Assembly (NCBI RefSeq): GCF_004916895.1
Contig: NZ_SNTZ01000010.1
Coordinates: forward strand, 46 to 64,045
Direction: 5' to 3'
Length of the DNA: 64,000 nucleotides
Origin: Flagellimonas alvinocaridis
GTDB lineage: Bacteria > Bacteroidota > Bacteroidia > Flavobacteriales > Flavobacteriaceae
Numbering within the stretch: position 1 is the first letter of the stretch; each line of letters opens with the position of its first letter. A program made the translations under genes and the position numbers. Shown here one piece after another: positions 7,032 to 31,873 of this stretch. The notes beneath the pieces are model-generated. The model had not been told where the DNA came from and made no database searches. It saw only the letters and a program-made list of their open reading frames with translations.

Positions 7032-7490
7032 ATGAACATGTTAAAAGTAGGGGATAAAGTACCTGAATTTTCTTCAAAAGACCAAGATGGAAACACAATT
7101 AATCTAAGCGACTACAAGGGGAAAAAGCTTGTAGTGTTCTTCTACCCGAAGGCCAACACTCCAGGTTGCACCTTGGAAGCCTGTAATTTAAGGGACAATT
7201 ACAAGGACTTGACCGATGAGGGTTATGAACTTTTGGGGGTAAGTGCCGATACCGAACGCAAACAGGCCAATTTTAGAAATAAATACAAATTCCCGTTTCC
7301 TTTATTGGCGGATGTGGACCATACCGTGATCAACACTTTTGGGGTATGGGGACCCAAAAAATTCATGGGACGTACTTTTGATGGTATCCATAGAACCACT
7401 TTTGTCATTGATGAAGAAGGCGTGGTGGAAAAGGTCATTGAAAAAGTAAAGACCAAGAATCATGCAGCGCAGTTGTTAGGCCAGGGATAA
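7032..7490 (+). CDS. bcp: Thioredoxin-dependent thiol peroxidase (BCP/PrxQ peroxiredoxin)
   Basis: 152 residues with a single AhpC/TSA peroxiredoxin domain. It reduces hydrogen peroxide and alkyl hydroperoxides with electrons from thioredoxin. The active-site segment FYPKANTPGCTLEAC has the peroxidatic Cys46 (numbered from ATG 7032) and a resolving-type Cys51, the PrxQ spacing of five. A second ATG two codons later (7038) is equally possible and matches the family start MLKVGD. It is divergent from nth across 55 bases, so DNA repair and peroxide defence share one control region. Confidence 0.95.
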   Translation: MNMLKVGDKVPEFSSKDQDGNTINLSDYKGKKLVVFFYPKANTPGCTLEACNLRDNYKDLTDEGYELLGVSADTERKQANFRNKYKFPFPLLADVDHTVINTFGVWGPKKFMGRTFDGIHRTTFVIDEEGVVEKVIEKVKTKNHAAQLLGQG

Positions 7491-7669
7491 CTTTGATGGA
7501 TTGAGATATCGGATGTCAGACTTCCGATAAAAGACAAAACAAAAGATGCGAGAACCAAAAAGAAATCCGAAAATCTAAAATACCAACAATTTAAATTCCT
7601 CCTCAAAACTCAACTTTCAAAATAGCTTTGAATGTTCTGGCGGAACTAAATCAGAATTTGTTGAAGGAA

Positions 7670-9154
7670 TTATGCTTTTTCCTTTTCTTTTTTCTTTTCT
7701 GGAATTTCTCCTTCGGGAAGTTCTTTTTGGGAGAAAAGATGTTTTTCCTTGATGATTTCCGGAATACCCTCGGGAAGTTCATCCTCCCATCCTTTTTCTC
7801 CGTTCATTAATTTTTTCAACACATCCCTGGAGAAGATGTGCATCACATCAGGGTCATAATCAATGATGTCCATCACCTTACCATTATACTTGAAGAACTT
7901 GTAAAGTTCCTTCATTCGTGGGTGCACCTTGACATTGTTGCTGGTCATGATCTGTCCAGTTTCTGGATCTTTCATAGGGTAGAGGTACACTTTCAAATCC
8001 TTGAAGAACAGTTTTCCAAAGGCCTCCAAGATGCCGCCACTTAAGTGGCGATAGTATTTTTCATCGAAGACATCCACCAGATTGTTCACACCCATAGTAA
8101 GCCCAATGCGGGCCTTGGTGTAGTTGTTGAAATATTCCACCAACTTATAATACTCTTGGAATTTGGAGATGAGAACCGTATGTCCCAATGAGCACAACAA
8201 TTCCGCACGGTCCATGAAATCTTGTTCATCAATTTCCCCTGACGCTTTCAAATTGGACAAGGTGATTTCAAAAACCACAATGGTATTTTCAAGTTCAACC
8301 GTCTGTTCCCGGATAAAGATGTCGTATGACTTTTGGAACATGTCCATATTTACCTTGGTCACGGGCCTAAAGCTTCCCCGTAAGGCCAAAATGTTCTTTT
8401 TATAGAGGGCTGCTGCTGGCAAAAGGTTGTTGCCATCTGGCCCGAACATCACGGCATCCGTCATATCATTTTTGATCAGCTGCAAGCTCATCAATCGATT
8501 ATCTACCTCTTTGAAATTAGGACCTGTAAAATTGACCATGTCAATCTCAACGGTATCCTTGTCGATATGGTCGTATAGATATTTTAAAAGTTTTTTGGGC
8601 TTGTTGAACTTGAAATAGGCGCCATAAATAAGATTCACACCCAAAATCCCTAGGGTTTCCTGCTGTAAACGGGCTTCATTTTGTTTAAAGCGAATGTGCA
8701 GGACAATCTCATCATATTCTTTTTGATCGGGATCTAATTGAAATCGGATACCTACCCAACCATGTCCTTTGTAACGTTTGGAAAAATCGATGGTTGCCAC
8801 AGTATTGGCGTAGGTAAAGAACAGATAGTTGGGATTGTTTTCCCTGCTGATCCGTTCCTCCACCAATTGCATTTCATGGTTCAGCATTTTTTTTAAGCGG
8901 GACTGGGTCACATACCGCCCGTCTTCTTCAATCCCATAAATGGCATCACTGAAGGACTTGTCATAAGCGCTCATGGCTTTTGCAATAGTCCCTGAAGCAC
9001 CACCGGCCCTAAAAAAATGTCGAGCTGTTTCTTGTCCGGCACCTATCTCTGCAAAGGTCCCGTAAATATTTGGGTTAAGATTTATTCGAAGCGTCTTTGC
9101 CTTGATCGAAGGGATGTTTTCAAACGCATCTTCTTTGCTGAGTACAGTAGGCAT
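7670..9154 (-). CDS. Conserved flavobacterial protein of unknown function, about 494 aa
   Basis: The frame continues to 9379, but the ATG at 9154 (MPTVLSKEDAFENIPS...) is the likely start because the extension overlaps the divergent hydrolase and its promoter and is rich in unlikely residues. The protein has no signal peptide or membrane helix. Recognisable are a conserved N-terminal block (NPNIYGTFAEIGAGQE, FRAGGASGTIAKAMSAYDK) and a Lys/Glu-rich tail (PEKKKEKEKA). I recall proteins like this in many Bacteroidota annotated inconsistently (as nicotinate-nucleotide adenylyltransferase or TonB-dependent receptor); neither fits the sequence. The glycine-rich N-terminal block could bind a nucleotide, but no standard Walker or Rossmann motif is visible. 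Function unknown. Confidence 0.88.
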   Translation of the reverse strand: MPTVLSKEDAFENIPSIKAKTLRINLNPNIYGTFAEIGAGQETARHFFRAGGASGTIAKAMSAYDKSFSDAIYGIEEDGRYVTQSRLKKMLNHEMQLVEERISRENNPNYLFFTYANTVATIDFSKRYKGHGWVGIRFQLDPDQKEYDEIVLHIRFKQNEARLQQETLGILGVNLIYGAYFKFNKPKKLLKYLYDHIDKDTVEIDMVNFTGPNFKEVDNRLMSLQLIKNDMTDAVMFGPDGNNLLPAAALYKKNILALRGSFRPVTKVNMDMFQKSYDIFIREQTVELENTIVVFEITLSNLKASGEIDEQDFMDRAELLCSLGHTVLISKFQEYYKLVEYFNNYTKARIGLTMGVNNLVDVFDEKYYRHLSGGILEAFGKLFFKDLKVYLYPMKDPETGQIMTSNNVKVHPRMKELYKFFKYNGKVMDIIDYDPDVMHIFSRDVLKKLMNGEKGWEDELPEGIPEIIKEKHLFSQKELPEGEIPEKKKEKEKA

Positions 9155-21198: not shown

Positions 21199-22686
21199 CT
21201 AGTATTTGGCACTCTTTCCGTTGGCCTGTGTCCTTATAATGAACGCTCGGATATCATCATTGGCCTTTTGCAGATCTTCCCGTCTTAGGTACATCATATG
21301 CCCGGAACGGTATCCTTTAAATTCAAACCGGTCTTTCATTCGGCCACTTGGGTCTACTTGCGACATGGTATACTTTGCGGCAAAATAAGTACAGGCCCCA
21401 TCGTAATAGCCAGATTGTACCAACACATTCAAATATGGGTTTTGCGCCATGGCCTGACGAAGATTTTCCCTAACATTATCATCATCATTGTTCCATGGGT
21501 GTACTGGCCCAAACATGTTGTACTTAATATCTGTCTTAAAGTTGAGCTCTTCCTGTAAATAGTAGTTGATGGCGGGTGTGAAGCTATGTAGCCATGAGGT
21601 AAGTTCTGGGGAATAATCAGGACTGTCACCAAAAACCTGCCTATCTATCCCGAGGTATCTGCTATCCAATCGGCCAACCGTATAGGCTCCTCTATCTTTC
21701 ATCAGGGCTTTCCAGAAAAACTGGGTAGGAACGTCCAGGTTATGATCTAGGATATCTTGTTCCTTTAGACCAGTATAGTAAGCCATTTTCTGGGCCACGG
21801 CCTTCTTTTCCGCATCAGGAATAAACCCTCCTTTAGCAATGGCAGGAAGCAAGGTGTTTATGGTGTATGCTTCAACCTCTGGCAAGACTTCTAAAAGATC
21901 TTTGCTCTGCAGCGCTGAAGGAAGTGCTTTATGATGCCATGCAGTGGCAGCAAAATAGGGGAGATTTAGCGCACTGGAAACAGGGTCGTTGTCGCGGAAA
22001 ACCTTATAATCGGCAGGAGAAACCATGATGACTCCGTTCAAATACATCCATTGTTGGTTCTGAAGTGCCAAGGATAGCCCCATGACCCGGGTACCACCGT
22101 AACTTTCTCCTACAATATATTTTGGGGAACTCCATCGGTTGTTTCGAGTCACAAATGTGTTCAACCATTCGGCCAAATAGGCCGTATCTGCATTAATGCC
22201 AAAAAATCTTTCACGATCTACCTTCTCTCCGGTTTCAGGAATGGTTCTCGAGTACCCGGTGTTGGCAGGGTTTACATAAACAATATCGGTAACATCCAAC
22301 ACAGAGAAAGGATTTTCCTTTACGCCATAGGGTTGAACGGGGTATCCTTCATCATCAATCTTAAGGATTCGCGGTCCTGTGTAGGCCAAATGCATCCAAA
22401 CTGAACCGGAACCAGGCCCTCCGTTGAAAGAAATCAACAAAGGACGACTTGCGCGATCTTTCACATTGTTCCGTGTATAGTAAGTGTAGTGAAGCGCCGC
22501 AACAGGCTCCCCCATTTCGTCCCATACAGGCTGAGTACCCGTAGTGGCCGTATAGTTGATGTTGATACCGTTTATGGTAACGGCATGTTGGGTTGTAATG
22601 GTTGTATCTACGGGTATTTTTCGGTTTTGGGCAATCACAAGGGAGGAACAGAGGGCTATGCCCAGGAAGAGATAGATTTTTTTCAT
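21199..22686 (-). CDS. Exported S10-family serine carboxypeptidase-like peptidase
   Basis: 495 residues with a signal peptide (KKIYLFLGIALCSSLVIAQ). The alpha/beta-hydrolase hallmarks of peptidase family S10 are present: FNGGPGSGSVWMHL (oxyanion hole, about residue 88), YVNPANTGYSR, and GESYGG with the nucleophile Ser195. The catalytic Asp is probably in LVQSGYYDGAC and the His in GYRSGHMMYLR. It should remove C-terminal residues from peptides in the periplasm. Single-gene transcript with its own terminator. Confidence 0.93.
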   Translation of the reverse strand: MKKIYLFLGIALCSSLVIAQNRKIPVDTTITTQHAVTINGININYTATTGTQPVWDEMGEPVAALHYTYYTRNNVKDRASRPLLISFNGGPGSGSVWMHLAYTGPRILKIDDEGYPVQPYGVKENPFSVLDVTDIVYVNPANTGYSRTIPETGEKVDRERFFGINADTAYLAEWLNTFVTRNNRWSSPKYIVGESYGGTRVMGLSLALQNQQWMYLNGVIMVSPADYKVFRDNDPVSSALNLPYFAATAWHHKALPSALQSKDLLEVLPEVEAYTINTLLPAIAKGGFIPDAEKKAVAQKMAYYTGLKEQDILDHNLDVPTQFFWKALMKDRGAYTVGRLDSRYLGIDRQVFGDSPDYSPELTSWLHSFTPAINYYLQEELNFKTDIKYNMFGPVHPWNNDDDNVRENLRQAMAQNPYLNVLVQSGYYDGACTYFAAKYTMSQVDPSGRMKDRFEFKGYRSGHMMYLRREDLQKANDDIRAFIIRTQANGKSAKY

Positions 22687-22885
22687 TTTTAAGGTTAATT
22701 AGTCTAGCACTAAAAATAGGTATTTTAGGTAAAAGAACCCTTACCATCCCAAAAAATAAGGTCTTAACATTAAATTCAAGAATGCGAAACACAAAACCTG
22801 CCTAAACTTTACATTTTAACATTGATTTAAAACAAGCATAAACCAATCAACATGTAGGGCTAACTCAATCCTAAAGGTCCATCTC

Positions 22886-22893
22886 TAGTTTTG
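22886..22893 (+). promoter_or_regulatory. -7 element of the PhoX-like lipoprotein gene
   Basis: TAGTTTTG fits TAnnTTTG; initiation near 22899 would give a leader of about 27 bases before ATG 22926. No convincing -33 box. Confidence 0.4.
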
Positions 22894-22925
22894 ATAAAAC
22901 ACAAATAACCTTAAAACTAGACTTT

Positions 22926-24545
22926 ATGAATTTGAAAAAATTATTCTTTGGATTAATGCTTTCTTCCGTGGTTGCATTCGGACTTACCAGTTGTGATGGG
23001 GAAGATGGAAAGAATGGCATCGATGGAACAGATGGTATTGATGGTGTGGACGGAACCAATGGTCAGGATGGTGAAGATGGAGAGGACGGAGATGACCTAA
23101 CCGTAGCTGAACTTGTTCCACTTACCAGTTCTGTAACCCCCAATACTGTATTTGAACTTAAGGGGGAATTCAGTACCTCTGCCCAATTGGAAATGATCAT
23201 GTCCTCGGCAGATATCCTTGAATCCGATTCCACTTTTGTATATGGGGCCTACATGGATGGAGCGGCATTGTATCCTTATGAAGATGGTACATATGCCTTC
23301 ATCAACAACTTGGAAGCCGATTATTCCGTTGCCCGAATTCGTATGAACTCCGATTTGCAACCCTTGGAAGGCGATTATATCGTAAACTCTGCGGCTACCG
23401 CTTTCACAGCAATGTGTTCCGGTTCTTCAATTACTATTGAAGAGCATGGATTTGGCCCACTTTATCTTTCTGGAGGTGAATGGGGCGGAAATGCAAAAGG
23501 CGTATACAAAATCAATCCATTCCGCTCACCAGATGATAGGGTAGAGGCTGAAAGATTGCACGCACTTGGTGAATGGGCTACAGAAAATGCCGTTGCCATT
23601 GGAAAAGATGCCTATCCTACACAAACAGTTGTTTTTATGGGAGACGATGATAGCAACAACACATATCCCCAAGCACACTTTGGTATGTATGTGGGCAACA
23701 GGGGTGATCTTTACAGTGGGAAACTCTATGTGTTGAGAGGAAAGGATACCACAGAAACTGCCATTGGTGGTGGGGGTCTTAAGTTTGAAATGGGGATGGC
23801 TGAAGACGTTGAATACGATGTGGAATGGGTTGAGATGACTGAGCGCACCCTAGCCGAATTAAATCAAGAAGCCATTGACTCCGTTGCCATTGGATTCCAG
23901 AGAATTGAAGATATTGATTGGAGAAGAGGTTCCGCTGAAAATAACAGAACGGTTTTCTTCAACGCTACAGGTAGAATACGTTCCGATAACCCCGATTTGG
24001 CCAATAGAGGTACTTCCTTTGGAAGAGTGTACAAACTGGAACTTGACCCTAACAACCCCATTGGTGATGCAAAATTGACCGTTGTTGTTGATGGTGATTT
24101 GGAGGGTGGCAAAGGAGATGGTATGCACTCTCCCGATAATATTGTTGTTACAGAGAACTATGTATATGTTCAAGAAGACCCCAATGGATATGCTAATGAG
24201 AATGCAGACATTCAAGGTTATGCCAAATTGTGGCAATATGATATCGCCACAGGCACTTTTAAGGAAGTAATGGAGTGTAACCAAGTTGCTGCAGCTGGCC
24301 TCGGTATTGGTAATACGGATTCTTATTGGGAAATTACCGGTATGATAGATGTGACCGACATCATCGGAGCTTCTGAGCCTACTTTTATCGGAGGGGCCCA
24401 AGTACACGGTTGGTCTTTTGACAGTAGCAACCCTATGACATACAGGGCAGATGGAAAGAAGTTTGTGGATCCTACTGCCATTGATGAGGCTGCGGCCACT
24501 TTGGAAGGATCGTTCCTTTTCAAATTAACGGGTCTTCCCAGATAA
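22926..24545 (+). CDS. Lipoprotein with collagen-like stalk and PhoX/DUF839-like domain
   Basis: 539 residues. The lipobox LTSC places the lipidated cysteine at residue 23. Starting with residue 25 there are eleven consecutive Gly-X-X triplets (to about residue 57), nearly all acidic and free of proline, ending in a run of Glu/Asp. The remaining 480 residues resemble PhoX-type (DUF839) phosphatase propellers: QTVVFMGDDDSNN, QRIEDIDWRRG, GRVYKLELDPN, and MHSPDNIVVTENYVYVQEDPNGY, which parallels the SPDN motif of that family. PhoX enzymes use Fe-Ca cofactors to hydrolyse phosphate esters. Activity is inferred. A terminator follows, then a di-heme peroxidase gene in the same direction. Confidence 0.82.
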   Translation: MNLKKLFFGLMLSSVVAFGLTSCDGEDGKNGIDGTDGIDGVDGTNGQDGEDGEDGDDLTVAELVPLTSSVTPNTVFELKGEFSTSAQLEMIMSSADILESDSTFVYGAYMDGAALYPYEDGTYAFINNLEADYSVARIRMNSDLQPLEGDYIVNSAATAFTAMCSGSSITIEEHGFGPLYLSGGEWGGNAKGVYKINPFRSPDDRVEAERLHALGEWATENAVAIGKDAYPTQTVVFMGDDDSNNTYPQAHFGMYVGNRGDLYSGKLYVLRGKDTTETAIGGGGLKFEMGMAEDVEYDVEWVEMTERTLAELNQEAIDSVAIGFQRIEDIDWRRGSAENNRTVFFNATGRIRSDNPDLANRGTSFGRVYKLELDPNNPIGDAKLTVVVDGDLEGGKGDGMHSPDNIVVTENYVYVQEDPNGYANENADIQGYAKLWQYDIATGTFKEVMECNQVAAAGLGIGNTDSYWEITGMIDVTDIIGASEPTFIGGAQVHGWSFDSSNPMTYRADGKKFVDPTAIDEAAATLEGSFLFKLTGLPR

Positions 24546-24582
24546 TCTATTGATTTCGCATCATAACAGTTTTAAAATAAAG

Positions 24583-24609
24583 AGGTTCCCTGTTTCGGGG
24601 AACCTTTTT
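24583..24609 (+). terminator. Hairpin terminator between lipoprotein and peroxidase genes
   Basis: AGGTTCCC (24583-24590), loop TGTTTCG, GGGAACCT (24598-24605), followed by a T-run to 24609. An 8-bp GC-rich stem with U-tract, so the peroxidase either has its own promoter or depends on read-through. Confidence 0.9.
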
Positions 24610-24635
24610 GTTTCCACTTTTAAATTCATCCACCT

Positions 24636-26468
24636 ATGAGATCACCAATATACACCATCCTCTTTGCATTCTTTTTTATGATGTTGGGATCATGCAAAAA
24701 GCAAGAAGGGAATGCAAATCGTTCTACGTCAATGGATAAAGAATCCCTTTATAATGAAGATATAAGGGTACATTATTTCCAAACCTTGGACAGTGCTACA
24801 CACTATATTCAAAAAATGGACACTATAAAAAGTTTGGAAGAGAACAAGAGAAATTTTCTTAAAAGCAGGGAATGGTACAAGCGGGCCGAACCTATGATAA
24901 TTGCCTATGATTATGAAAATTACCTGTCTATGAATGCCCCCAATCTTCTTAAGGTGGAAATTGATGACTACACAGACATTAAAAGACTTAAACCCAAGAG
25001 TTATCAGGTTTTGGAGGAGCTTTTATATGGAGAGGAACCCATATCAAATCAGGAATTGGACATGGTATTAAGCTATTTACAGGCCCGTATTCCGTATATG
25101 AGAAGAAACCATATCCTATATACCCAAAGAGACCGGCATCATCTTAAGATGATTAGGGATGCCATTGTCAATATTGCCACAAAAGGCATTACCGGTTTTG
25201 ATTCGCCCATGCTGGCCAATTCATTGAATGAGGCCATTTATAATTATGAAACCATTGCCCAGATCTTGGATATTTATAAGGAAGCATTTACGGATAAAGC
25301 GTTGTTAGATCTTTGGTCCGCAGAAATTCAGAAGACCATTGAAACTTTAAAATCAGGGGACTTTGATAGTTTTGACCGCTACACCTTCATTAAAAACCGT
25401 ACCAACAGGCAATTGGGGTTGGTGAACTCAACTGCAAGAGATTGGAACATTGTCTTAAATACCTCCCGACCCTTGAATCCAACTGCTACTAATCTTTTCG
25501 ATAGGGATTTTTTCAATATCAAACAGTTTTCTATACCAGGCTCTCCGGCCATCACCCCAGAACGCATTGCTCTTGGAAAGCAATTGTTTAATGATGGAAC
25601 GCTTTCCAGTACAGACAATATAAGTTGTGCCACATGCCATATCAAAGAAAAAGCATTTACCGATGGACATCCAAAAGCCTTGGGCATCAATGGAATTGAG
25701 TTGCAACGTAATACGCCTACTTTGTCATATGCAGTATATCAGACAACAATGTTTTATGATGGTAGGGCCGATGGTCTTGAAGACCAAATTGTAAATGTGG
25801 TCAACGATGAAAATGAATTTCATATTGATTTGAACACTATTGAAAAAAAGGTAAGGGAGAACAATCTGTACAAAGTTGCATTTGACAGTTTGTACGGAGG
25901 CGAAATCACTAATTTAAACGTACGTCATGCCATTGCCACTTATATTCGGAGTCTTGCCCCCTTCAATTCCAAGTTTGATCGAAATATACAGGGAACAGAA
26001 AATTCACTGACCCATGAAGAAAGGCTAGGTTTCAACCTTTTTATGGGAAAAGCAGCCTGTGCCACTTGTCATTTCCCCCCAGCCTTTAACGGAATAGTAC
26101 CTCCCAAGTATGCAGAAACGGAGTTTGAAAACTTGGGAGTACCTAAAAATCCAAGCTTTGGACATCCTGTTTTGGATGATGACCCCGGAATGTACTATCC
26201 CTATGAAGTAGAAGAAAAACGAAATTTCTTTAAAACGGCAACGGTTCGCAATGTAGAATTGACCGGGCCCTACATGCACAATGGGGTATATAAAACCTTG
26301 GAAGAAGTAATCACGTTCTATAATGTTGGAGGAGGGCAGGGAATGGGACTAGATGTGCCCTACCAGACTTTACCTCCGGATTCGCTGAACCTGAGTGATC
26401 GTGAACAAAAAGCATTGGTAGCCTTTATGAAAACACTAACGGACAAAGAGTTTATGGATGGAAAATAA
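24636..26468 (+). CDS. Di-heme cytochrome c peroxidase/MauG-family lipoprotein
   Basis: 610 residues. A lipobox GSC (Cys20) predicts periplasm-facing membrane attachment. Two c-type heme sites CATCH are at about residues 331-335 and 475-479, the spacing of bacterial cytochrome c peroxidase/MauG, within a C-terminal catalytic half (ALGKQLFNDGTLSS...; KTATVRNVELTGPYMHNGVYKTLEEVI). The N-terminal 290 residues are an extra helical domain of unknown role, longer than classical CcpA. The enzyme either reduces peroxide or, like MauG/MbnH, oxidises residues of a partner protein. The adjacent tryptophan-containing lipoprotein at 22926 is a candidate partner; this is inference. Confidence 0.92.
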   Translation: MRSPIYTILFAFFFMMLGSCKKQEGNANRSTSMDKESLYNEDIRVHYFQTLDSATHYIQKMDTIKSLEENKRNFLKSREWYKRAEPMIIAYDYENYLSMNAPNLLKVEIDDYTDIKRLKPKSYQVLEELLYGEEPISNQELDMVLSYLQARIPYMRRNHILYTQRDRHHLKMIRDAIVNIATKGITGFDSPMLANSLNEAIYNYETIAQILDIYKEAFTDKALLDLWSAEIQKTIETLKSGDFDSFDRYTFIKNRTNRQLGLVNSTARDWNIVLNTSRPLNPTATNLFDRDFFNIKQFSIPGSPAITPERIALGKQLFNDGTLSSTDNISCATCHIKEKAFTDGHPKALGINGIELQRNTPTLSYAVYQTTMFYDGRADGLEDQIVNVVNDENEFHIDLNTIEKKVRENNLYKVAFDSLYGGEITNLNVRHAIATYIRSLAPFNSKFDRNIQGTENSLTHEERLGFNLFMGKAACATCHFPPAFNGIVPPKYAETEFENLGVPKNPSFGHPVLDDDPGMYYPYEVEEKRNFFKTATVRNVELTGPYMHNGVYKTLEEVITFYNVGGGQGMGLDVPYQTLPPDSLNLSDREQKALVAFMKTLTDKEFMDGK

Positions 26469-26483
26469 AGAGGGGCGTATGGT

Positions 26484-27248
26484 CTAAAACTTTTCGAAAA
26501 CCCCCAAACCAAAAAGGGCAAAATCGTACTTTACCGGATCCAAGGCGTCCAGTTTTCTTAAGTTTTTGTCCAGTTCGGCCAGTGCTTTGGCATCGTTTTG
26601 CTTGCGTTTGAGCAGTTTCAGCTTTCGGGCCACATTGCCCGAATGCACGTCAAGCGGACAGGAAAGTTGGCTTGGCCGTAATTGCTTCCAAAGGCCAAAG
26701 TCGACCCCAGTGTTATTGTCGCGGACCATCCAACGTAAAAACATATTGATACGTTTGGCTGCAGAACCTTTCATAGGATCTGAAATGTGCTTTGTGGTCC
26801 TTCGAGGATGGGGTAATTCAAAAAAAACCTTTTTAAAATCTGAAATAGCCAATTGTAGCGAATCCTGTCCTTGGTTCCTAGCAAAAACCGATTCCAATCC
26901 ACCCTGCGCTTTATAGATATTTTTCAGGCTGGTTACAAAATAGCCCAAGTCCTCCCCGTTAAATGTACGGTGCACAAAATGGGAAAGCATAGCCAAATCA
27001 TCGGCCGAATGGTTCATTACAAAATCGTGGGGTGTATTGCCCAACAGCTCCATCAATTTAGATGCATTGTTGATAATGCTCTTTCGGTTGCCCCAGGCAA
27101 TGGTGGCCGTTAAAAACGCACTGATTTCAATATCTTCTTTTTTTTGGAATCGATGGGGAATTTGCAATGGGTCACTCTCCAAGAATTTTGGATGGTTATA
27201 TTCCACCACTTTCTCGTCCAAAAAATCCTTTAGTTCAGATTTGGTCAT
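26484..27248 (-). CDS. TIGR02757 family protein (DUF2400)
   Basis: 254 residues from ATG 27248; the longer frame to 27263 would overlap the upstream ATPase gene. The sequence fits family TIGR02757: DEKVVEYNHPKFLESDPLQIPHRF, ISAFLTATIAWGNR, and CPLDVHSGNVARKL. The helical core and DP-H pattern are reminiscent of helix-hairpin-helix DNA glycosylase folds, and I recall that suggestion for the family, but activity is unproven. It starts four bases after the LolD-like gene stop, so they are co-transcribed. Confidence 0.88.
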   Translation of the reverse strand: MTKSELKDFLDEKVVEYNHPKFLESDPLQIPHRFQKKEDIEISAFLTATIAWGNRKSIINNASKLMELLGNTPHDFVMNHSADDLAMLSHFVHRTFNGEDLGYFVTSLKNIYKAQGGLESVFARNQGQDSLQLAISDFKKVFFELPHPRRTTKHISDPMKGSAAKRINMFLRWMVRDNNTGVDFGLWKQLRPSQLSCPLDVHSGNVARKLKLLKRKQNDAKALAELDKNLRKLDALDPVKYDFALFGLGVFEKF

Positions 27249-27252
27249 GGCT

Positions 27253-27915
27253 TTAAGAAACAATCAAACCGTCAACCATCGTTAATTTCCTGTCTGCCAT
27301 GTTGGCCAATTCAAGGTTGTGGGTCACCAATACAAAGGTTTGTCCAAATTCGTCCCGAAGCTTAAAAAATAGTTTATGCAAATTGTCCGCACTTTCAGAA
27401 TCTAGGTTGCCACTGGGTTCATCGGCCAAAACCACGGACGGATTGTTCATAAGGGAACGTGCCACGGCCACACGCTGTTGTTCTCCACCAGAGAGTTCAT
27501 TGGGTTTGTGGTGTTGACGGTCTTTCAGCCCTAAAAAATCTAGGAGTTCCATGGCTCGTTTTTCAGCTTCTTCCTTAGGTGTTTTTTTGATGAAGGCAGG
27601 AATACAGACATTTTCCAAAGCCGTAAACTCTGGCAACAGTTGGTGAAACTGAAAAATGAAGCCAATATGTTCATTGCGGAAGCGGGCCAGTTTTTTGTCG
27701 TTCAGTTGGGTAACCTCGGTGTCGTTGATCAGTAGCTTACTTTCTTGTGTATTGGATGGAGAGTCCAAAGTGCCCAAAATTTGCAACAAGGTTGTTTTTC
27801 CGGCACCCGAAGCACCAACAATAGATACCACTTCCCCTTTTTTGATTTCTAGGTCAACTCCTTTGAGAACTTTCAGGTCCCCATACCTCTTCTGAATATT
27901 TGTAGCCTTGATCAT
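27253..27915 (-). CDS. ABC transporter ATP-binding protein, LolD-like
   Basis: 220 residues, one ABC ATPase domain. Walker [10 protein letters not shown] (about residues 34-42), Q-loop [16 protein letters not shown], signature [15 protein letters not shown], Walker [13 protein letters not shown] and H-loop VTHN are all present. The [11 protein letters not shown] and EPSGNLD pattern is that of the LolD/MacB/FtsE branch, which powers lipoprotein release or efflux with an FtsX-like permease; no permease gene is adjacent here. Function in lipoprotein sorting is inferred. Confidence 0.92.
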
Positions 27916-29596: not shown

Positions 29597-31873
29597 TTAA
29601 AGCCCGATACTCAAGTTAAAGGCAATATTTCTGCCCATATTGGCAATGCCGTCGGTTTTTAATCGAGATAGGTGCGAGATGTAAGTCTTATCGAAAAGAT
29701 TGTTACCACTGACTTTGTACCCCACAAGTTGATTAAATATTTTTAATTCCCCACCAATTCCCATGTTGAATAGGCTGTAACCTGGCGTAGTTGCTTCAAA
29801 AGTGGCCACTTTATTCTGGTCAAATACGGATTGAAGTGTAGCAAAAGCATAGCTTTTGGATTTTGTTCCCTTAATCGTGTTCCATTCCACCCGCAGGGTA
29901 TTGTTCCACCGGTTTGCCGGAATCAAGGGAAGGTCTGTCTTATCTTCCAGTTCTCCAAACACCATATCAAAACTGCTCTCAAAATGAAGCCAATCCAAAG
30001 GATGTGGGTGCAAGTGAAAACCAAATTCCCCACCATATAGCTTTGCATTTTGTTGCTGAAAAACATAAATCGGGTTGTCATCCCTAAAATCTCCAGTAGG
30101 TTGCAAATAGATATAATTGCTCACACTGTTATAAAATGCGTTGGCATACACCTCGATGTGCTGGTTTCCATATTCAAGAGCCAAATCTACCTGTACATTT
30201 TGCTCACTATCCAAGTCAGGGTTTCCAATTTCCACGCGATTGGCACCACTATGTAAGCCGTTCGAGGTTAATTCGGATAAATTTGGAGCCCTAAATCCAG
30301 TGGCCAAGTTCAAACGGAACAAAATATTATCCGTTAGATCGGCTCTATACCCTACCGCAGCATTGAAGCTGTTGAAGTTTTTGTCCAAACTGGGAATGTA
30401 TTCTTCATCCCCAACAATACCACTTTCTTCCCCATTTATAGATCTAAGATCGTACCGGACCCCTAATTGTAGGTCACTCTTGTTAAAGTGAATATGTGAT
30501 GTGGCCAGTACCCCGAAATCATTGGTAATAGCATTGGGAATCAGCACTTCTTCCCCAAAATTTTCATTTTTTTGGTGCATCCCTTGTACACCAAAAATCG
30601 TGGTCATACTACCCCATTGAGGGTTAAACTGGATATTATAGTTGAATGTGCTCAAGTCCATATCCAAAGAGGGACCTTCCTCACCCTCTTCATGTTCCTC
30701 TTCGTGCCCTTCCTCTTCATGTTCTTCACCCTCTTCATGCTCGTGGTGTTCCTCAAATTCCTTTCTATCATTAAAAATATACCCGAAAGTAGCCTCAAGG
30801 CTGGATTTTCTAAAGAAAAAATTAGTTTTTGAACTCAAGATATGGGTCGCAATCTCTTGGTTGGGCAATAAAGGATCCCGTTCATTGTTCTGTACGCCAA
30901 TTTCCTCCGGAATACCCAGATTGGATTCATTATAATTATACCGTAGCTCTGTTTTGAACTTGGTTGCTTGATAGGCCACCCCAGTTTTTATGTCTGCTTC
31001 ATTAAATCTGGAATTGGTAACCCCAGTACCATCGCCCGTTTCATAATCTGCATTGGAGGCATATGCGCCCCTGACCAAAAACTTAAACTTGTTACCAGAG
31101 GTCTTAAATCCAGCATTGGCCCCATAGCCTAGTGTATTGGTAAAATAGTTTAGGTTGATGTCGCCCGAAGTCTGATTTGGTAGTTCAAAGCTTTCAGGAT
31201 TTAAGTAGAGAACTCCTCCAAGAGCATCGGAACCATAGAGCAGGGAAGCTGGGCCTTTGATAACCTCTACACTTGAAATACCGGCATCGTTGATGCCGAG
31301 GCCATGTTCGCCTCCAAATTGCTGATTTTCCAGGCGAACCCCTTGGGTATATACCAAAACCCGATTGAAGCTAAGTCCTCGAATGACCGGTTTCCCTATT
31401 CCCACTCCTGTGGAAACTGAAGTTACCCCGGGAATGGTTGCAATTCCTTCGGCTAGGGTAATTGCGCCTTCACTTTTTATTTCAGCAATTGATTTTTGCT
31501 CCACCTTCATTACGTTTTCACGTTGAAGTTTATGAAAAGGAGTAGATAGGACAACTTCATCAATCTCAATGGCCGATGCTACCATTGCATAATTAAAAGT
31601 ATTGGTACCTGAGTGAATCTGCAAGGTTGTGGAGTGGGTTTCATAACCCAAGTAGGCAACTACAAGTTTGTAAGAACCCTCCGGAAGACCTGCTATTGTG
31701 TAGGAACCATTGGTATCAGTAACCGCACCTTTTTCCAATTGGGGTATGTATACAGACACCTGTTCCAAAGGCTGTCCATTTTCCGAATCTGTTATGTTAC
31801 CTGTAACTGTGCTCTGTGCTACTATATAAAGTGGTGTCAATGCCAAAAGCATTGACGTGAATAATTGTTTCAT
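29597..31873 (-). CDS. TonB-dependent outer-membrane receptor with His-rich loop
   Basis: 758 residues. Signal peptide (MLLALTPLYIVAQ), carboxypeptidase-regulatory-like domain (about 21-100), plug domain (about 110-225: VTSVSTGVGIGKPVIRGL, VEVIKGPASLLYGSDALGGV) and a 22-strand-type barrel. An extracellular loop at about residues 374-399 is almost only His and Glu. Such loops occur in zinc receptors like ZnuD, so zinc or another divalent metal is a reasonable substrate guess. The next minus-strand genes upstream encode a His/Cys-containing small protein and a DUF6787 membrane protein, probably the same transcription unit. Confidence 0.94.
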   Translation of the reverse strand: MKQLFTSMLLALTPLYIVAQSTVTGNITDSENGQPLEQVSVYIPQLEKGAVTDTNGSYTIAGLPEGSYKLVVAYLGYETHSTTLQIHSGTNTFNYAMVASAIEIDEVVLSTPFHKLQRENVMKVEQKSIAEIKSEGAITLAEGIATIPGVTSVSTGVGIGKPVIRGLSFNRVLVYTQGVRLENQQFGGEHGLGINDAGISSVEVIKGPASLLYGSDALGGVLYLNPESFELPNQTSGDINLNYFTNTLGYGANAGFKTSGNKFKFLVRGAYASNADYETGDGTGVTNSRFNEADIKTGVAYQATKFKTELRYNYNESNLGIPEEIGVQNNERDPLLPNQEIATHILSSKTNFFFRKSSLEATFGYIFNDRKEFEEHHEHEEGEEHEEEGHEEEHEEGEEGPSLDMDLSTFNYNIQFNPQWGSMTTIFGVQGMHQKNENFGEEVLIPNAITNDFGVLATSHIHFNKSDLQLGVRYDLRSINGEESGIVGDEEYIPSLDKNFNSFNAAVGYRADLTDNILFRLNLATGFRAPNLSELTSNGLHSGANRVEIGNPDLDSEQNVQVDLALEYGNQHIEVYANAFYNSVSNYIYLQPTGDFRDDNPIYVFQQQNAKLYGGEFGFHLHPHPLDWLHFESSFDMVFGELEDKTDLPLIPANRWNNTLRVEWNTIKGTKSKSYAFATLQSVFDQNKVATFEATTPGYSLFNMGIGGELKIFNQLVGYKVSGNNLFDKTYISHLSRLKTDGIANMGRNIAFNLSIGL

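Follow-up and report, generated by a model that had tools for sequence, protein, structure and literature searches.

The window analyzed here, a 64,000-nucleotide stretch of the genome of Flagellimonas alvinocaridis (Flavobacteriaceae; assembly GCF_004916895.1, contig NZ_SNTZ01000010.1, positions 46 to 64,045 of the forward strand), carries two co-directional genes that are separated by 90 bases and flanked on both sides by genes on the opposite strand. The first gene, referred to below as P1, encodes a lipoprotein resembling the phosphatase PhoX, whereas the product of the second gene, P2, combines an M75 (EfeO/EfeM/imelysin) domain with a di-heme domain of the MauG/MbnH type. Their principal features are as follows.

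22926..24545, + strand: P1, PhoX-type phosphatase-like lipoprotein, 539 amino acids (aa) (reading frame, structure match, alignment)
22992..22994, + strand: lipid-anchor Cys23 of P1 (lipobox GLTSC by inspection; C23 in 77/77 aligned rows)
22998..23096, + strand: eleven Gly-X-X triplets, P1 residues 25-57, Asp-rich and proline-free (sequence, alignment)
23142..24542, + strand: PhoX beta-propeller domain, P1 residues 73-539 (Z 24.7 over 381 residues to 4a9v)
24636..26468, + strand: P2, M75-like plus MauG-like di-heme lipoprotein, 610 aa (reading frame, profile and structure matches)
24729..25454, + strand: M75 domain, P2 residues 32-273 (Z 22.1 to EfeM 7q1g, 228 residues)
25005..25016, + strand: Q124-V-L-E127, a QxxE motif replacing the HxxE of M75 proteins (motif listing, alignment)
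25548..26459, + strand: MauG/MbnH-type di-heme domain, P2 residues 305-608 (profile, sequence, and structure matches)
25626..25640, + strand: first heme motif CATCH, P2 residues 331-335 (C331, C334, and H335 invariant in the alignment)
26058..26072, + strand: second heme motif CATCH, P2 residues 475-479 (C475, C478, and H479 invariant in the alignment)
26319..26321, + strand: Tyr562 of P2, at the position of the MauG axial ligand Tyr294 (phmmer alignment to MauG)

Naming P1 by sequence alone was tried and abandoned: no profile scored above its cut-off, and the PDB match to a chain called Exotoxin A was weak (0.0038). The Pfam PhoX model PF05787 did not match P1 and matched 3 of 28 P1 rows (E-values up to 10 allowed; best 4.9e-7), and a PDB profile search with the alignment of P1 relatives gave no match. 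The PhoX-like domain proposed in the original prediction was nonetheless borne out by the AlphaFold model built from the 28 rows (mean predicted local distance difference test [pLDDT] score of 82), for which PhoX ranks first among solved structures. The model aligns with Pseudomonas fluorescens PhoX over 381 residues with a root mean square deviation of 3.3 and 20% identity, and Foldseek lists PhoX structures first (E 1.3e-15; best non-PhoX structure, E 6e-6). Lactonases and DFPase come next, with Z 23 over ∼270 residues; the gap in Z is itself small, and PhoX is favored because of the longer alignment, the Foldseek ranking, and the sequence profiles. In profile comparisons, the 77 P1 rows matched 27 canonical PhoX proteins with E 3e-14 (residues 207-422) and a second group of PhoX proteins encoded next to P2 genes (see below) with E 1.8e-18.

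Residues C179, E273, R385, E387, D479, E532, and H551 of P. fluorescens PhoX, numbered by aligning a canonical PhoX with 3zwu in phmmer, are taken here to make up its Fe/Ca site, the individual ligand roles and metal assignment being partly presumed. In the profile alignment, E273, R385, E387, and D479 correspond to P1 residues E220, R326, E328, and D404, whereas C179, E532, and H551 were matched by motif only to C164, E469, and H494. Of these candidate metal- or phosphate-binding residues, six are conserved in 77/77 P1 rows and H494 in 76/77. In the other PhoX group paired with P2 (35 proteins), the equivalents C157, E242, E322, D423, and E492 are found in 35/35 and H511 in 34/35. Judging from this conservation and the modeled fold, P1 is predicted to be an active PhoX-type phosphatase.

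The original prediction also included an extra N-terminal domain on the di-heme lipoprotein, which it left unrecognized. The domain is real: it occupies approximately residues 28-297 of P2, after a lipobox MLGSC with the lipid Cys at C20, and its structure match is the EfeO/imelysin fold, pointing to iron. Seven M75 entries, comprising EfeM, EfeO, Algp7, and imelysins, were matched with Z values of 22.1, 22.0, 22.0, 21.7, 20.8, 19.4, and 19.2, and the two four-helix bundles of the M75 fold are present in this well-predicted half of the protein. The C-terminal half carries two CxxCH motifs, matches CCP_MauG with E 1.2e-44, in agreement with its earlier assignment to the MauG type, and is homologous to bacterial cytochrome c peroxidases. 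The best sequence and structure matches of residues 305-608 are MbnH (6e1c) and MauG, but the scores for the MauG and MbnH equivalog models TIGR03791 and TIGR04039 stay far below the cut-offs (177.4 versus 443.85 bits and 198 versus 362.85 bits, respectively). Tyr562, the residue at the MauG Tyr294 position, is invariant in 34/34 diverse rows; peroxidases presumably have Met there. Of three further MauG residues, Glu113 aligns with the invariant Glu394 of P2, Trp93 with Tyr374, and Trp199 with the region of the invariant Lys472, where MbnH also has Lys. Several stretches of the di-heme half were modeled with pLDDT below 50, as expected for a model without hemes.

The two genes are tightly linked. 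P2 lies directly after P1 in 32/32 uncut loci (the contig search found 33, one of which, L001, is cut inside P1); the closest named relative by P1 identity, among such loci with full P1, is Flagellimonas olearia (95%). Among 299 genomes of the family, 69 P1 relatives scored above 200 bits, short matches covering the stalk region alone having been left out; the P2 N-domain directly follows in 65 of them, and two further P2 genes (G075 and G282) were found on reading the DNA, which brings the total to 67/69. The two P1 relatives without P2 (G040 and G262, read as L135 and L136) are both second copies. Absence of the pair from other genomes had been named beforehand as grounds for dropping the proposed connection. 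Since the pair is kept throughout these loci, a functional link between P1 and P2 is well supported by the gene order, within a set of relatives that, here and in the neighbor counts below, are not independent of each other.

Two observations concern individual copies. The second P1 copy in L135 adjoins genes for an NhaA antiporter and for a lipoprotein of 1218 aa that contains a metallophosphatase domain and weakly matches ShlB. A fasciclin-domain protein is encoded after P2 in L146 (8688-9812), and a similar-sized frame follows in L145.

The P2 N-domain is also found without P1 beside it, with 26 such matches in the family sample. The 23 regions that were read, covering 25 of these matches, encode PhoX proteins with type IX sorting tails where scanned (L111, L112, L115, and L132), phosphatases of the purple acid type (PAP; L116, L120, and L124, the last placed in this set by the model only), a PF04185 protein (L114), and PhoD with laminin-G (L127 and L128); no phosphatase was seen in L110. 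A wider N-domain profile gave matches in 64/395 genomes of the phylum, 66 of them with E <1e-13 (four near 1e-3 were left out of the census). Fifty-eight of these 66 regions were fetched; the other eight comprise six known pairs, G406, and a match whose contig is a duplicate (G674:C65). They contain 56 P2 proteins longer than 480 aa, shorter ones having been dropped (L216 and L234 from the phylum loci; L115, L119, and L130 from the others). A phosphatase is encoded within three genes of P2 in 50/56 cases, as the immediate neighbor in 47 (30 P1-type, 15 other PhoX, and 2 PAP) and two or three genes away in 3, which leaves six without one (L196 and L207 at contig ends; L211, L213, L229, and L237). 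In all fetched regions, including the chosen ones, 85/94 P2 genes have a phosphatase, or 86 if the cut PhoX at the contig end of L232 is counted.

The P2 set used for the tree and for counting neighbors (n = 101) includes 7 members labeled P1 by hand and 16 from loci that were fetched for holding P1. With the two PhoX labels merged into one state, at least six partner changes occur on the tree, which was built by a quick method, with 29 of 98 inner branches open and long branches leading to L235 and L114. If only the starred branches are considered, PAP requires two changes and PhoD one. PhoX types account for 76/184 open reading frames (ORFs) adjoining P2 versus 6/592 other ORFs. The PAP, PF04185, and PhoD models match 8/184 adjoining ORFs versus 1/592 others, a comparison that is partly circular because the models were built from those same Pfam-named neighbors. 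P2 neighbors are thus mostly phosphoesterases, and most belong to families known as ferric enzymes: PhoX, PhoD, and PAP are all described as Fe3+ enzymes in the available parts of the PhoD structure paper (PMC4223295).

In some of these loci the gene arrangement differs. Two P2 genes stand in a row in L127 and L128, beside PhoD-laminin-G, and in L110, beside a 2033-aa frame with no Pfam match. A leucine-rich-repeat gene lies between PhoX and P2 in L225 (7365-8285), and L231 has a similar-sized unscanned frame (7302-8204).

Among PhoX proteins, the presence of P2 largely goes with a difference in export signals. PF05787 was found in 60/395 genomes, and all 27 canonical matches above 210 bits were read (L240 to L266): 27/27 have a Tat-type (twin-arginine translocation) motif at the N terminus (22 RR and 5 SRK), and none has P2 beside it. 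The P2 N-domain is absent from 26 of the genomes with these canonical PhoX genes; in G383 it occurs at a different site, next to a gene of the P1 type. Of 23 separate PhoX matches scoring 34-160 bits, 19 are within three genes of P2; the others are G032, G329, G591, and G552, in which the two genes lie on different contigs. P1 has a lipoprotein signal, not a Tat signal, and the Tat pattern is found in 0/49 P1-type proteins. The strict Tat pattern occurs in none of the 93 phosphatases read (49 P1-type, 35 PhoX, 6 PAP, 1 PF04185, and 2 PhoD), and the loose pattern in L239 alone. Excluding five that are not beside full-length P2 (L117, L135, L136, L238, and L239) leaves 88 phosphatases in loci with P2, with the strict pattern in 0/88. 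For L132 and L231, whose N termini seem to be misplaced, the signals are poorly assessed.

The tether of P1 begins as described in the original prediction: eleven Gly-X-X triplets start two residues past the lipid Cys, with C23 as the lipid Cys and Gly25 as the first triplet residue. The Pfam Collagen model scores this Gly-X-Y repeat just below its cut-off (24.8 versus 27.2 bits; E 1.8e-5) and matches 22/28 P1 rows, in which the stalk has ∼8 to 12 triplets. The tether is probably disordered (pLDDT below 50 at residues 16-56 of the AlphaFold model). The idea that it is an essential part of P1 was rejected: it is dispensable, since a short Gly/Asp linker replaces it in five relatives (L021, L022, L024, L028, and L029) and another insert does so in L031. 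Many other Flavobacteriaceae frames, often ∼200 aa long, match P1 only in the signal and Gly-X-Asp tether (e.g., G177:C91:12455-12634 and G026:C1:198212-198421). Because so many frames match this region alone, the Gly-X-Asp tether looks like a surface linker shared across the family rather than a PhoX-specific feature.

Two further features bear on expression of the pair.

22886..22893, + strand: Bacteroidota -7 promoter box TAnnTTTG (TAGTTTTG), upstream of P1 (pattern read from sequence)
24575..24613, + strand: terminator-like hairpin in the P1-P2 gap (RNA fold z -4.5)

TAnnTTTG, which we take to be the Bacteroidota -7 box, is present upstream of P1 in 30/34 regions, the window included (shuffles, mean 3.0). 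A hairpin of varying sequence with a T-rich tail occurs in 27/33 P1-P2 gaps, again counting the window, and therefore P2 is probably expressed less strongly than P1. No support was obtained for a Pho box ahead of P1, either as TTWAMH repeats at 11 bp (5/34 regions; shuffles, mean 2.4 and maximum 6) or in its cyanobacterial form (2/34 versus 0.2, maximum 2), whereas TTAAC-type sites were found in 16/34 regions (shuffle 5.5, maximum 12). No Rfam element reached the gathering threshold within positions 22600-26700. The direct neighbors of the pair, the opposite-strand genes at 21199-22686 and 26484-27263, were read by eye; they do not look Ftr1-like, and neither an iron permease nor a TonB receptor gene was seen directly beside the pair. 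By the same kind of reading, a TonB-receptor-like gene lies 3 kb downstream (29597-31873, opposite strand).

PhoX is a widespread route to phosphate for marine and soil bacteria, and iron has been argued to limit it. The combination of an iron-type PhoX site in P1, an iron-uptake fold and a MauG-type center in P2, and mostly phosphoesterase neighbors fits best with P2 being a dedicated extracytoplasmic maturation enzyme that inserts or oxidizes iron in a Sec-exported PhoX, a reading that we favor tentatively and with less than even confidence. P1 would then be a phosphomonoesterase of the PhoX (Fe3+/Ca2+) type. In contrast to classical PhoX, it would be exported unfolded via the Sec/lipoprotein route and held off the membrane by its Asp-rich Gly-X-X tether. 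The M75 domain of P2 could dock on P1 or pass iron to it, and the di-heme center, using peroxide, could oxidize the iron or maintain it in the ferric state, allowing assembly of the PhoX center outside the cytoplasm. The authors of the PhoD structure speculate that PhoX and PhoD are exported by Tat because their iron has to be acquired in the cytoplasm (PMC4223295); Bacteroidota PhoX proteins of the P1 kind lack Tat signals and have P2. The maturation reading also fits the published finding that no activity was detectable when F. johnsoniae PhoX was expressed in P. putida in the absence of its MauG-like neighbor, although misfolding or mislocation are further explanations offered in that study (PMC8812569).

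Several observations weigh against P2 being such a maturase. The PAP and PhoD controls, which like the control for other CCP_MauG genes covered 1.5 kb on each side, ruled out the notion that all Sec-exported iron phosphatases need P2. A PAP-model match was found in 16/30 PF16656 loci, several of them weak and most with Sec-like N termini, and P2 in none; 30/30 PhoD loci lack P2, and 25/30 fail even the loose Tat pattern. There is thus no general need for P2, as PAP and PhoD genes mostly go without both the Tat pattern and P2. Three PhoX-type genes (L238, L239, and L267) likewise lack P2 as well as a strict Tat motif, and the difference between Tat and Sec also splits two PhoX clades and so may reflect a single event. 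For the PF04185 enzymes, we know of no use of iron. The classical M75 metal site is altered in P2, since HxxE is replaced by QxxE or QxxD in all rows inspected (Q124 and E128 being invariant in 34). An M75 branch without the HxxE His, IPPA, is on record (PMC3143127), and the literature describes what EfeO/M itself does as unclear. Confidence in the maturation role stays below one half because the export rule fails for PAP and PhoD and the HxxE motif is altered.

The main rival, which appears fairly unlikely, is that P2 acts as MauG and MbnH do and oxidizes Tyr, Trp, or Cys side chains of the phosphatase, creating a protein-derived cofactor or a crosslink on which its activity would depend, with the M75 domain as the docking part. 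A MauG-made cofactor has already been proposed for Flavobacterium PhoX in the accessible text of PMC8812569, and MbnH and MauG being the best sequence and structure matches of the di-heme half, together with the invariant Tyr562, speaks for it, as do P1 residues Y255, Y369, Y414, C164, and W496, all invariant in 77 rows. Against this stand the distance from the equivalog cut-offs, the Tyr and Lys found in place of MauG Trp93 and Trp199 (the Lys being shared with MbnH), and partners of unrelated folds with no evident common target. Trp residues of P1 are mostly variable, W496 being the only invariant one, and the PhoX group also paired with P2 keeps other Trp residues invariant (W218 and W292 in L111) and has no Trp in the W496-equivalent motif (by eye); conservation thus lends little support to the Trp/Tyr oxidation suggested originally. 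It is likewise unlikely that the two proteins scavenge jointly without contact, the phosphatase freeing phosphate from organic, possibly iron-bound, phosphate while P2 handles the released iron, or peroxide, in parallel. Both are predicted lipoproteins, M75 proteins belong to iron-uptake systems, and Fjoh_2478 (PhoX-like) and Fjoh_2477 (MauG-like) of F. johnsoniae were both strongly induced on phosphate depletion according to the part of PMC8115612 available, which also supports the earlier suggestion of surface phosphate chemistry. Parallel functions, however, need no such tight one-to-one linkage, the induction reported so far responds to phosphate, and no iron permease or TonB receptor gene was seen by eye directly beside the pair.

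That P2 is a general surface-protecting peroxidase that consumes peroxide, with phosphatases as neighbors through shared regulation only, is improbable. Its homology to cytochrome c peroxidases would agree with such a role, but P2 keeps the Tyr of MauG where peroxidases have Met, and its partner swaps stay among phosphatases; moreover, none of the 30 best-match loci of other CCP_MauG genes has a phosphatase model match within 1.5 kb, and 29 lack M75 (the remaining match being weak). Extending the maturation role beyond P1 is a doubtful generalization: P2-type proteins could form an unrecognized class of extracytoplasmic phosphatase maturases, in which EfeO and peroxidase functions on one chain load or oxidize iron in several unrelated folds, freeing Bacteroidota PhoX from Tat and allowing lipoprotein and type IX display. 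The M75-MauG partner is a concrete and testable candidate for the factor missing when Flavobacterium PhoX was expressed, inactive, without its neighbor, and P2 offers a possible function for imelysin-type domains beyond iron uptake.

The operon and the idea of a MauG-made cofactor are already published for Flavobacterium. Fjoh_2478/Fjoh_2477 is likewise an operon of a divergent PhoX-like lipoprotein and a MauG-like cytochrome peroxidase, to which the homology of P1 and P2 is judged from description, not alignment; the M75 domain, the pairing with other phosphatases, and the Tat/Sec split are not named in the available portions of these papers (PMC8115612 and PMC8812569). The phosphatase link of the M75 fusion and the partner swaps of P2 appear new in the open-access literature: no report of P2 beside PAP or PhoD was found in open-access PMC, and a search there for MbnH/MbnP returned nothing on phosphatases among the papers listed. 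P. fluorescens PhoX (3zwu and 4a9v) shares with P1 the fold of residues 73-539 and the mapped active-site residues at ∼20% identity, but P1 differs in its Sec/lipoprotein export, Gly-X-X tether, and partner gene. The tether resembles the short Gly/Asn/Asp run just after the lipid Cys of MtrC-type lipoproteins (7o7g; PDB sequence match, E 0.053), whose cargo is unrelated. EfeUOB, an iron-uptake system that combines an M75-type protein and a heme peroxidase (PMC3143127 and PMC9174327), shares with P2 that functional tie and, through EfeO, as do EfeM, Algp7, and imelysins, the fold of the N-domain. P2 differs in its QxxE motif, its fusion to a di-heme MauG-type domain, and its phosphatase neighbor, and no EfeU was seen among the direct neighbors. 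Imelysin-like/peroxidase fusions described in PMC3143127, compared with P2 by description since the text carries no sequences, have no phosphatase context in the part available. Finally, MbnH/MbnP and MauG/methylamine dehydrogenase share with P2 a di-heme domain with an axial Tyr and a partner gene product, whereas P2 adds the M75 domain and has phosphatases, rather than MbnP or methylamine dehydrogenase, as its partners.

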